From contig CALVCA010000002.1 of the NCBI GenBank assembly GCA_944325895.1, positions 62,001 through 126,000 of the forward strand: a stretch of 64,000 bases of DNA, given 5' to 3'. Source of the stretch: Candidatus Gastranaerophilales bacterium. Lineage in GTDB: Bacteria; Cyanobacteriota; Vampirovibrionia; Gastranaerophilales; Gastranaerophilaceae. How positions within the stretch are numbered: position 1 is the stretch's first letter; each line of letters starts with the position of its first letter. The position numbers and the translations under genes are program-made. Positions 10,392 to 57,161 of the stretch are shown here, piece by piece. The notes under the pieces were generated by a model. That model ran no database searches. It was not told the DNA's origin and saw only the letters and a program-made list of their open reading frames with translations.

Positions 10392-11414
10392 TTAATTTTC
10401 AATCGGATCGCCTGCATTATAAGGTGTATACTCAATTTTATTATATAACAAAGCATTATTTAACAATTTTTTCTTATTCGGCACAATCTCTCCTGTAGCC
10501 TTTATATCATACCTGTAAATATCAGCTCCGATTTGATTAGGTTCATCAATATTATTAATATCAACATATATGTAACCGCAATTATTGGTTGTAACCGGTT
10601 TAGTCCCGATTTGATTGCCGTTTTCATCTCTTATTATTTCTTCATAAGTAAAAACACATTGTGTATTCATCTTAACCTGAAATATCACACCGTTTGATAA
10701 ATATAATCTGCCATAATTATAAATACCGTCAGCAGTAGCATACACACCATCTTTTAGATAAGGTTCGTTACTTTTTACATCATAATATTTACAGTATTTT
10801 TCATTATTTGATGCCGTACAAACCTTAGCAGTTTTTAAAACGCTTGCTAATTCCGCTGCAACCTCGTCGGAAGTTTTATTTACATCAAACAGACACAATA
10901 AATTTGCACAATTATTCTTTGCAGTGTACAACTGTATTGCATTCATCAATTGCGAATGTGCTTGTTTAACTTTTGTTACCATCACTTTTTCTTGATAATT
11001 TTTGAGTAATGTCGGAATTGTCATTGCAGCCACAATCCCTATAATTCCGAGGGTGATTAAAACCTCTGCCAAAGTGAAAGCGGCATGACGATTATTGTCA
11101 AACGTACCTACGTGCGTAGCACCGCTCCGCTCAGGATGACGTGTGGGACGGAATAAATTCGTTAGTAAGTTATTTTGGTGTAATGCCATAACAACTTTAT
11201 TAAAAAATCCATCATCAGTTTTCTTATTTTCTAAACTATAATTCATAATATCAAAATTATAGTTTAATTTTAATACATAGTCAATCGGGGTAAAAAACAA
11301 TCCTAAAAACGCTTTTAAACACGTTGTTCCTAAAAAATCAATTCTGACTAAGCTTTGAGCAAGTCGCCCCCCCCCTAATAGTGTTCTAAACAATTGTTTT
11401 AAACCTTTATTCAT
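10392..11414 (-). CDS. prepilin A: type IV pilin-like protein with 112-residue leader, poly-G tract in the open (ON) register
   Basis: A 340-residue frame with the prepilin signal AAFTLAEVLITLGIIG at residues 111-126. The peptidase site would be Ala112/Phe113, with Ala instead of the common Gly at -1. The mature part has a hydrophobic N-terminal helix and a C-terminal globular domain containing VDINN. What is odd is the 112-residue leader, which starts MNKGLKQLF, crosses a run of nine G (codons 14-16, read as GGG) and continues RLAQSLVR. The Met found just before the pilin signal in copies B and C is Thr (ACG) here, so translation appears to need the upstream ATG. That ATG has AAAGGAGG and a consensus promoter. 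It is one of four related genes, and the only one in frame. Confidence 0.8.
   Translation of the reverse strand: MNKGLKQLFRTLLGGGRLAQSLVRIDFLGTTCLKAFLGLFFTPIDYVLKLNYNFDIMNYSLENKKTDDGFFNKVVMALHQNNLLTNLFRPTRHPERSGATHVGTFDNNRHAAFTLAEVLITLGIIGIVAAMTIPTLLKNYQEKVMVTKVKQAHSQLMNAIQLYTAKNNCANLLCLFDVNKTSDEVAAELASVLKTAKVCTASNNEKYCKYYDVKSNEPYLKDGVYATADGIYNYGRLYLSNGVIFQVKMNTQCVFTYEEIIRDENGNQIGTKPVTTNNCGYIYVDINNIDEPNQIGADIYRYDIKATGEIVPNKKKLLNNALLYNKIEYTPYNAGDPIEN
11367..11375 (-). repeat. homopolymer G9 tract in prepilin A (in frame)
   Basis: Nine consecutive C on the plus strand, read as GGG GGG GGG on the coding strand, starting 39 nt after the A of the start codon. The flanking coding sequence CGACTTGCTCAAAGC is nearly identical in copies B and D. 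The length of nine keeps the downstream pilin in frame. Confidence 0.85.
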
Positions 11415-23200: not shown

Positions 23201-24111
23201 TTAAAGACATTCCCAATATGTTTTGGTTTGATCGTCAGGACAGATGTTTCTTAATGCCCAGTATGCACAACCGACACCATTTTGTGTATCAGTAGAATTT
23301 TTAGAACAATATGCATTATGGTTTGCAAAATTCCAATAGCTATAAACACCTTTACCCATCGGAATAATCGTCTTTTTATCCGCATCAAAGCCAAAATAGA
23401 ATATATCATAGTGCATTAGGTCCTTTGGCACCGTTTACATCGAAAACTATCCAATTTGCAGCACAATTATATATCCCTCCGACAGCAGATCCGTCTGCTA
23501 AAATTTTTGTCGGCAGCTGCGAGCATCCCGGATATGAACCCGATACATTGCCTGCATAATCTTTTAATACAAATAATCTTGTTTTACTGTCAAGATATTT
23601 AAGTTTAAGCCACATATCCTGAGTACTTAAAGTATTATTTTCATCTAATATTTTATAATTCCGCCATAAAGCGTTAAAAAAATCAGACTGTCTTGTAACA
23701 GTACCGCTGTATGCCCCGTAAAATTCATTTTGTATAGGCACAACAGCCTGCATTAGCATGGCATAGGATTTTTTAAACCCTGTTTCCAAAGCTTTAGTTT
23801 GATATTTTGAAATCAATGTAGGAATTGTCATTGCGGCAACAATTCCTATAATCCCGAGGGTGATAAGAACCTCGGCTAGCGTGAAGGCGGCACGACGATT
23901 ATTGTTAGACATATTTACGTGCGTAGCACCCTGAGGCTTTAGCCTAAAGATCTTTTTAATAACTTTATTTAAAAAACTCTCCTCTATCTTAACAAAAATC
24001 CGGCTAATATATTTCCAACGATTAGCAGTAAAAGCTTTTCTAGCTAAGCTTTGAGCAAGCCGCCCCCCCCCCTAGTGACGGTCTACAAAATAGTTTTAAA
24101 TCTTTATTCAT
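23201..24111 (-). pseudogene. prepilin B: type IV pilin-like gene, shifted twice (poly-G register OFF and a 3' frameshift)
   Basis: ATG 24111 with AAAGGAGGTAAATT reads MNKDLKLFCRPSL, then a G10 run that throws it out of frame to a TAG 8 codons later. With G9 the frame would continue through a 75-residue leader (RLAQSLARKAFTANRWKY...) into MSNNNRRAAFTLAEV and the pilin body (23912-23406). The body frame then ends at TGA after VNGAKGPNAL, but the +1 frame continues LMHYDIFYFGFDADKK to 23201, which is the expected pilin C-terminus. A one-base insertion or two-base deletion near 23408 explains this. The internal ATG at 23912 has no ribosome site. So the gene is OFF at the tract and probably also damaged downstream. 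Confidence 0.75.
24063..24072 (-). repeat. homopolymer G10 tract in prepilin B (out of frame)
   Basis: Ten C on the plus strand, G on the coding strand, 39 nt after the A of the start codon exactly as in copy A. One G fewer restores a frame of 75 codons into the prepilin signal. Confidence 0.85.
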
Positions 24112-25216: not shown

Positions 25217-26307
25217 ATGAAAACAATTGAAGAATTAGCGGATAAGATAGTCGCCCCCCCCCTGAAGTTAACGTAGCTGAACGCTTTCCGGCATTTTTTA
25301 AGTTTATTGACTTCTTTCTTATTCCAAACTATAATTCTAGTATTATGAATTATAAAAGGGTAAATTGGGTTGAAAAAATAAAGGGTAGATTTTTTAATAA
25401 AGTTACTATGGCACTATGCCAAAATAACTTTTTAACGAACTTATTCCACACAACCCGTCATTCTGAGCGAAGGTGCTACGCACGTAGACACATTAATTTT
25501 GCATTGTCTTCTACACGTCATTCTGAGCGGTGCGAAGGTGCTACACACGTAAGTATGTTTGACAAAAATCGTCGTGTTGCTTTCACGTTAGCTGAGGTGC
25601 TTATCACCCTCGGGATTATTGGGGTCGTTGCGGCTTTGACTATTCCGACTTTGATTAGTAATTATAATAAACGGCAAACAGTTACAAAATTAAAACAAAC
25701 CTATTCTATTTTATCTCAAGCTTTAACTATGGCTCAAGTAAAAGAAGGTGATACCTCAACCTGGGATATCGCAGGAATTTACGGCACTCCGACTGATGAT
25801 CCGAATTTTAACTATGCTCAAACAATAAAAATTTTTTCATCAAAATATTTAATACCATACATAAAAGTATCTAAAGATTATGGATACAAAACTTTAACAG
25901 GATTAAACTATGACGGAATTTATATGCCGGTAAGCAACAGTATTGAAGGGTCTTCAGGATCTTTCGGCTATATAATATTATTATCAAACAATGTTCTTAT
26001 AAAAAATTCAATAGGAACGCAGTGTATAGAACATAATAATGATAATACCTGCCAAAAACGTGAATACAGAAACATTATTTTTACAGTAGATATAAACGGA
26101 TTTAACAGCCCGAATACTATGGGAAAAGATGTATTTTTAATGCATTTTGATTTAACAAAAAAACAATTTGGGTTTAATCATGGTACCTCCAACAAATCAA
26201 GAAATTTTTACCAATCACAATGTACAACAGATGATGGTTCACAATTATGCGGATATTTAATTTATTTAGACGGCTGGCAGATTAAAGAGGATTATCCGTG
26301 GTTTTAA
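25217..26307 (+). CDS. prepilin C: type IV pilin-like gene, poly-C register OFF as sequenced
   Basis: ATG 25217 with AAAAAGGAG reads MKTIEELADKIVAPPLKLT and stops at a TAG (25274-25276) because the run at 25254-25262 has nine C. With ten C the frame reads APPPEVNVAERF and continues unbroken for 363 codons to 26307. The leader would be 122 residues before VAFTLAEVLITLGIIGVVA; the peptidase site is Ala/Phe. The leader shares FFNKV.MAL.QNN.LTNLF with copy A and holds two copies of a TRHSER-coding palindromic repeat. The pilin body ends with VDINGFNSPNTMGKDVF and several Cys. An internal ATG (25555) gives a short leader but has no ribosome site; the frame from ATG 25345 is also without one. Confidence 0.75.
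25254..25262 (+). repeat. homopolymer C9 tract in prepilin C (out of frame)
   Basis: Nine C on the coding strand, preceded by AGTCG and starting 37 nt after the A of the ATG. One extra C restores the long frame. The tract is C on the coding strand here and G in copies A, B and D. Confidence 0.85.
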
Positions 26308-55886: not shown

Positions 55887-56799
55887 CTAATCAAAAGGAT
55901 AATCTTCGGAGATTTTCCATCCGTTGCGTATTATTTTGTCAGCACAACAAAAACCATTTCCGTTTGGTTTGCAATTATCATTAACATAATTATTATTGTC
56001 CTTATAACAATAAGGTCTGACTACATTTTTATCAAAATCTATAACAAATACAAATACGTCCTTTCCAAAAGTGTTTGGACCGTTTACCCCGTTTATATCC
56101 ACAAAAATTCTTTGCATAGATGTATATTTTGCAACGTTATTTCCGTTTTCTTCTAAAACCCAGGACATAACATAAATTAACAAAATAGTACCATCATTCA
56201 ATCTCACACAAATTCTACCGTTTGAATAAATAGTTTTAATTGAAAATTGATAAAGACTGCCGTCTAATAAAGAATATCCAAAATCATCACTACTATAAGG
56301 TGATTGAAAATCAGGGATGACATCTTTTACTTTTAAATAAGGTAACCAATAAGTATTAAAAAACTTTTTTGTTGTATCTGCTGTGACTTCTGCTCCTATT
56401 TTTAAATAATTATTTACAGAACCATTTTCATAAAAAGAACGAAGAATTAATTGATTCAATACAGAATTAACCTTCTTAAGTTGTGAAACTGTTTGTTTTT
56501 TCTTATATGTCACGACTAAATTCGGAATAGTCATAGCGGCAACAATTCCGATAATCCCGAGGGTGATAAGCACCTCGGCGAGGGTGAAAGCGGCACAACG
56601 ATTATTGTCAAATGTACTGGGGGTTGGGTGGTATACGTCATCCTGAGGCTTTAGCCGAAGGATCTCTTTAATAATTTTATTTAAAAAATTTTCCTTTATC
56701 TTAACAAAAATCCGGCTAATATATTTCCAACGATTAGCAGTAAAAGCTTTTCTGACTAAGCTTTGAGCAAGCCGCCCCCCCCCCTATTTCATATTTCAT
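55887..56799 (-). CDS. prepilin D: type IV pilin-like gene, poly-G register OFF as sequenced
   Basis: ATG 56799 (AAAGGAG 9 nt upstream) reads MKYEI, then a G10 run shifts it to a TAA 17 codons past the tract. With G9 the frame is open through a 70-residue leader (RLAQSLVRKAFTANRWKYIS...) to TFDNNRCAAFTLAEV and the pilin body to 55887. The Met of the short leader is replaced by Thr (ACA), so no conventional start exists next to the prepilin signal; the frame otherwise first meets a GTG inside the signal helix. The body contains VDINGVNGPNTFGKDVFVF and a Cys-rich C-terminus (GFCCADKI) like copy C. The promoter is TTGCAA-N17-TATATT. Confidence 0.75.
56640..56663 (-). repeat. palindromic repeat inside the prepilin D leader
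   Basis: An imperfect hairpin built on ATCCTGAGGCT and AGCCGAAGGAT (9 of 11 pairs). It is encoded in frame in the long leader. Related TCATTCTGAGCG and TCATCCTGAGCG elements occur in the leaders of copies A, B and C, joined to GGTGCTACGCACGTA. It resembles dispersed palindromic repeats seen in many genomes. Confidence 0.6.
56775..56784 (-). repeat. homopolymer G10 tract in prepilin D (out of frame)
   Basis: Ten C on the plus strand, G on the coding strand, 15 nt after the A of the ATG. Same right flank (CGGCTTGCTCAAAGC) as copy B. One G fewer opens the frame into the prepilin. Confidence 0.85.
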
Positions 56800-56888: not shown

Positions 56889-57161
56889 CTATTTAACCAA
56901 TTCTTTGAATTTTTTACCAGCAGAAAATGCAGGAACTGTTTTAGCAGCAATTTTCAATACTGCACCTGTTTGAGGATTTCTACCAGTTCTAGCAGCTCTC
57001 TTACGCGGTTCGAATGTACCAAAACCAACTAATGTTACTTTTTTACCTTTAGCAACAGTTTTTTGAATTGTTTCTAAAGTTGCTGCAATAACGTCAGCAG
57101 ATGCTTTTTGAGAAACTTTTGCTTTTTTTGATACTTCTTTTACTAATTCTTCTTTGTTCAT
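56889..57161 (-). CDS. hup: HU-family DNA-binding protein
   Basis: 90 residues, the family length. MNKEELVKEVSKKAKVSQKA, KKVTLVGFGTFEPRKRAART, the arm motif GRNPQTGAVLKIAAKTVPAF and FSAGKKFKELVK match HU. It bends and compacts DNA as a dimer. Only this HU copy is in the window. It has a strong promoter (TTGCCA-N16-TATAAT) and its own terminator. Confidence 0.97.
   Translation of the reverse strand: MNKEELVKEVSKKAKVSQKASADVIAATLETIQKTVAKGKKVTLVGFGTFEPRKRAARTGRNPQTGAVLKIAAKTVPAFSAGKKFKELVK

Follow-up and report, generated by a model that had tools for sequence, protein, structure and literature searches.

How does a prepilin gene that lacks a start codon of its own come to be translated? The window, i.e. 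the whole stretch of 64,000 nucleotides that was analysed, contains such a gene on its minus strand, downstream of an HU gene. The prepilin frame is open from 56783, within a G10 tract, to the stop codon at 55887. It has no ATG inside, and its first ATG, GTG or TTG is the GTG at 56573, within the signal helix. The ATG at 56799 lies 89 nt beyond the HU gene and reads five codons before the G10 tract; its frame, which encodes MKYEIGGGAACSKLSQKSFYC, terminates at 56734. The preliminary description had proposed that the pilin has no start except through this out-of-register tract, that G9 instead of G10 would give a continuous 303-codon gene and that ordinary gene callers would truncate the protein. 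All of this is borne out: the 913 nt from 56799 to 55887, minus one G, make 303 codons plus a stop, and a mechanical caller gives a 228-aa ORF starting in the signal helix. That description had also provided the ATG with a ribosome site and a promoter. The former is confirmed, whereas the promoter-like sequence is weak (Table 1). A search of the leader of this gene for an in-frame start with a Shine-Dalgarno sequence (SD) found none.

Table 1. Coordinates of the features discussed, as positions in the window
Feature	Position	Strand	Remark
HU-type DNA-binding protein gene	56889..57161	minus	conserved upstream neighbour; Pfam PF00216, E=1.6e-30
Promoter-like TTGCAA-17-TATATT	56847-56819	minus	weak: 1 match, 0.7 expected by chance
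Shine-Dalgarno AAAGGAG	56814-56808	minus	read from the sequence
Start ATG	56799-56797	minus	SD-led; read from the sequence
Short ORF, 21 aa (predicted OFF product)	56734..56799	minus	from the ATG through the tract; stop TAA 56736-56734
G10 tract (candidate switch)	56784-56775	minus	in frame at 9; read from the sequence
CGGCT	56770..56774	minus	differs by 1 base from CGACT, the flank conserved 3' of G tracts
Leader, 62 aa	56589..56774	minus	in pilin frame; segment of repeat modules shared by paralogues (EILRLKPQDDVYHPTP)
Mature pilin-like domain, 233 aa	55890..56588	minus	FTLAEVLITLGIIG...; PF07963, PF20318; stop 55889-55887
G10 tract of paralogue	24063..24072	minus	ATG 24111; out of frame
G9 tract of paralogue	11367..11375	minus	in frame (ON), from ATG 11414 through to 10392
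C9 tract of oppositely oriented paralogue	25254..25262	plus	AGTCG-C9, which is the G9-CGACT core in reverse complement

A candidate phase-variation switch in front of a pilin-like gene

The mature part of the product matches PF07963 (N_methyl, E=5e-6) and PF20318 (DUF6613, E=6e-6) and carries the N-terminal methylation motif with Glu5 (FTLAEV). Its AlphaFold2 model consists of a helix (residues 3-55) followed by a beta-rich head (pLDDT 92). The structure search against solved pilins returned full-length but weak matches only, such as the PAK pilin over residues 1-221 (Z 4.6, no significant Foldseek E-value). Unlike the short leader peptide of typical type IV prepilins, that of the window gene has 62 aa, and the term pilin-like therefore rests on the mature part. 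No LPXTG motif occurs in its pilin frame. The genome encodes a prepilin peptidase (PF01478, 34 bits, over the cut-off), as well as MutS1 and MutL.

The G10 tract is probably an ON/OFF switch for phase variation by slipped-strand mispairing, and one of about 30 pilin-like loci of this kind that are biased towards OFF and oriented with replication. Translation from the ATG would enter the tract and leave the frame, so that the majority genotype would make the 21-aa peptide only. Slipped-strand mispairing at replication might drop one G and thereby fuse the start to the leader and pilin, giving a 303-aa prepilin that the peptidase would cut before FTLAEV. With about 30 loci mostly OFF, switching within the population would lead each cell to express and display on its surface few of many pilin-like proteins.

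The arrangement is that of a contingency locus: a homopolymer of at least eight bases lies between a real start and an intact frame, some lengths being in frame and others not. Runs of eight or more G are far commoner than chance predicts in the window, which has 33% GC (10 positions observed, 0.30 expected), and each of its four tracts lies upstream of a prepilin frame. The presence of MutS1 and MutL counts against a switch, since it should lower the rate of slippage.

A family of tract-led prepilins with open leaders

In the genome (1.69 Mb, 47 contigs), the AFTLAEVLITLG signature is matched exactly 39 times, and tracts of at least eight G or C number 37. About 30 of these tracts lie upstream of a prepilin frame, just after the start, with lengths of 8-11; these copy numbers are a lower bound since the assembly breaks at the pilin repeat family. 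Contigs C10, C17, C22, C27, C30 and C39 end within pilin leaders or signal regions. Four species, each represented by one genome, were compared locus by locus (this genome, G000, and G009, G010 and G014). A set of 114 loci comprises their SD-led tract-pilins and single loci from other genomes.

In the four genomes, 99 of 100 tract-pilins have an SD and a start. Their leaders are of two types, G-type (GGGRLAQSL...) and C-type (DSRPPP...), span 6 to 191 residues between tract and pilin (median 107) and share repeat modules (TRHSERSEESLNEILRLKPQGATHV...). Most leaders (e.g. 11100-11180 on the minus strand of the window) are mosaics of such modules, always in pilin frame, and some contain an internal AAFTLAE-GATHV duplication. 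In 96 of the 100 loci the leader frame is uninterrupted between tract and pilin, and 10,615 leader codons contain 4 stops in the pilin frame versus 902 and 1121 in the other frames. Therefore, the leader frame is coding. Conservation of the leader amino acids was looked for and not found, variable codons being synonymous in 4 cases and nonsynonymous in 12. Hence, openness is the sole feature that leaders are shown to keep. Translation starting inside the leader was considered and rejected, only 7 of the 100 loci having an SD with an in-frame start there.

Several copies deserve separate mention. The paralogue near 24 kb has a second frameshift near 23406 (23390-23440, minus strand), in the pilin body; its frame ends ...GPNAL* and a homologous frame resumes downstream, so that, its G10 tract aside, this copy seems defective. 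The C9 paralogue starts at an ATG at 25217, has its pilin motif at 25582 and is out of frame, needing +1. Another locus (L033, G000:C1:11388) encodes another sort of prepilin (FTLAEMMVVMLVLT), whose G10 tract is in frame and whose long NTAIGxxAL repeat region resembles YadA-type heads; at the beginning of contig C11 a tract and start of similar form lie on the opposite strand. Furthermore, a non-pilin family of three copies (L072, L073, L076) carries G9 after MKKN(R/K)AEKFLAEVT..., out of frame with a continuation of 56-59 aa (GGGYTS...).

Outside this genome, no close homologue with a conserved different start and no tract, which the preliminary description had named as contrary evidence, was found in related species. 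The majority of the best homologues there (39-52% identity) are closely preceded by a G or C tract, and in G010 the pilin that follows HU likewise carries a G9 in the wrong register. The relative G012 has similar long leaders with an ordinary ATG and SD and no tract, and some other pilins of G012 have ordinary in-frame starts without a tract; these are not close homologues of the window gene. Of 16 genomes of the genus, 12 contain the AGYCGC8 core; the exact 14-mer is present in only 4 of 41 sampled genera of the family, chiefly this one. We take the AFTLAEVLITLGIIG signature to point to Gastranaerophilales (Vampirovibrionia). Scans of viral contigs for both leader types gave no matches, and a scan of genome contigs gave a single one, in an unrelated Sphingomonas.

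Out-of-frame register and tract length

Only 11 of the 114 SD-led tract-pilins are in frame (3 of 30 in this genome, 1 of 33 in G009, 5 of 27 in G010, 2 of 9 in G014 and none of 15 other homologues), and the other 103 are out of frame. Loci that would be in frame at length 10 have length 9 in 87 cases and 10 in 8, whereas those in frame at 9, which include the window gene, have length 10 in 9 cases and 9 in 3. Since 10-readers sit at 9 and 9-readers at 10, it is the OFF register that persists and not a particular length. The Fisher test gives p=1.2e-6 for this association, a value that overstates it: the paralogues do not count as independent cases, a single length and its register could have spread by recombination, and one leader family of this genome supplies six of the nine G10 loci that would read through at 9. 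A preference for an OFF majority genotype would give this pattern; lengths that depend on register are not what a systematic error in length, or a mutational bias alone towards nine bases, would yield.

The wrong register noted in the preliminary description thus stands, but its view of the tract as something to re-sequence and correct was too narrow: the arrangement recurs in about 90% of the 114 tract-pilins, in several species and with frame-dependent lengths, and is therefore biological. Furthermore, two orthologues with pilins 86% identical differ in length, the one in G009 (L208) having G9 (OFF) versus G10 (ON) in G010 (L096). Two further orthologue pairs differ by an inserted GA. Compared with pilins of other species that are 98-100% identical, L142 and L149 have G10A where the others have G9, which amounts to an added GA.

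Strand polarity, gene replacement and alternative readings

The tracts share features at the DNA level. In 93 of 99 loci CGACT adjoins the G run, whichever way the gene points and with both leader types; the amino acids read from the G9-CGACT core differ with context and strand. Neighbouring tracts on a contig have the same G strand in 58 of 61 cases, including 17 of 19 pairs of genes that point in opposite directions; the three discordant neighbours lie at skew flips (G014:C1, G009:C30, G000:C4). As judged by third-position skew, the G strand is the G-rich (leading) strand for 40 of 42 core tracts; at the remaining two, the skew signs of the two gene strands disagree. At two loci that G000 shares with G009, where the gene runs in the same direction, both the skew-judged direction of replication and the tract type differ (C9 in L009 and L004, G9 in L196 and L193). 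Composition gives a G/C ratio of 1.15, with G4 runs at 1.4:1 and G5 runs at 1.1:1. GC skew as the only cause of the polarity was rejected: it predicts about 3.5:1 for nine bases (about 78%) versus the 95% observed (p=0.002). Hence, the polarity exceeds the expectation from composition, though not overwhelmingly. That the G strand is the leading strand at nearly all loci would suit a process at the replication fork, and the mutability of G-run motifs depends strongly on leading-strand orientation (PMC12344412). A genome-wide chi-like motif was also considered and dismissed, GGGGCGACT being hardly present outside tracts. A second class of tracts, followed by CAGTA (L220, L247 and L255, in G009 and G014), has a G strand that does not follow the skew.

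The genes behind the tracts vary at fixed positions. Between species, upstream flanks are 79-96% identical, yet the pilins are often unrelated (29-50%), and homology resumes in the downstream flanks of several pairs (L084/L149, L103/L117, L203/L099). At the window locus, the flank as far as the HU region is 84% identical with that of G010, where the position after HU is also occupied by a tract-pilin, but a different one (36% identity). Such conserved flanks around differing pilins argue for replacement of pilin genes in place. In several pairs of closer species homology stops 14-25 nt past the tract start, while in pairs with G000 it breaks upstream of the tract; these apparent breakpoints are blurred by the mutual resemblance of leader starts. 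The tract itself may be the recombination site.

Three other readings have to be weighed against a switch. If RNA polymerase slipped or the ribosome shifted at the G/C run, an out-of-frame gene would always be partly expressed, and this programmed recoding would account for the conservation of the wrong register at 103 loci and for downstream frames left intact despite OFF; the presence of mismatch repair genes also agrees with it. However, the run in the RNA is of G or of C, depending on the gene, and it is the orientation of the DNA strand to replication and the DNA flank that stay constant; this polarity and flank fit an event at the replication fork and fit recoding little. Moreover, most loci would need a shift of +1 nt and others one of -1, without a uniform slippery site, and 11 loci are in frame without any shift. 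We therefore consider recoding unlikely. Decay into permanently silent genes, or homopolymer errors of assembly, could be invoked for a copy such as the 24 kb paralogue with its second frameshift. This explanation is largely refuted and highly improbable: 96 of 100 leaders remain open to the pilin, length follows register systematically, a relation to which any error process is blind, and the pattern is repeated across several assemblies.

The remaining reading holds that pilin cassettes are swapped between loci at G9-CGACT and that tract and co-orientation are kept for this purpose and not for switching. The contrast between upstream flanks and pilins, the end of homology shortly past the tract start in several pairs, its return downstream in some (L084/L149, L103/L117) and the conservation of the core in both orientations all agree with it. 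It leaves the dependence of length on reading frame unexplained and its breakpoints are the blurred ones mentioned above, and as a substitute for the switch it appears very doubtful. Junction and switch are mutually compatible. Tentatively, G9-10-CGACT could be a dual DNA element at some 30-40 fixed pilin loci, both a fork-oriented switch kept OFF and a junction for cassette exchange, largely specific to the genus and inverted where the locus is replicated from the other side.

To return to the phase-variation switch, its closest precedent is the G-tract pilus switch of Bifidobacterium. In B. breve UCC2003, the sortase-dependent pilus loci bbr_0113 and bbr_1889 are silent at the consensus G-tract length, and the pili are expressed after reframing, replication slippage turning them ON (PMC9187656). 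An upstream ORF with start and SD, a G tract, a pilin frame without its own start and an OFF consensus are common to both systems; B. breve has two sortase (LPXTG) pilus loci in place of about 30 type IV-like prepilin loci and, unlike here, no fixed replication polarity or common flank is reported in the parts consulted (PMC9187656). The kind of switch is already known; it is the scale, the orientation to replication, the common DNA core and the replacement of genes in place that set this case apart. A search of open-licence papers on pilins or phase variation in Melainabacteria/Gastranaerophilales found no report of such a system. Contingency loci of Campylobacter and Neisseria likewise have, close to the 5' end of genes for surface proteins, a poly-G or poly-C run of 8-11, with frame-dependent ON and OFF states. 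In contrast to them, the loci described here belong to one paralogous pilin family, are nearly all OFF, have G on the leading strand and coexist with MutS1 and MutL. As with pilE/pilS of Neisseria, there are many pilin genes, whose coding sequences are probably replaced at fixed loci; pilS cassettes are silent and lack promoter and start, whereas almost every copy here has its own SD and start and would be gated by reading frame. In further contrast to the Neisseria system, a run of 9-10 G is too short for an intramolecular quadruplex of four runs.

Standard annotation truncates or misses tract-gated pilins. If the switch reading is correct, an uncultured lineage would possess a large combinatorial set of replication-slippage switches acting on surface fibres. 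Furthermore, more than 100 loci in both gene orientations would then offer a natural test of selection on slippage switches for the direction of replication.
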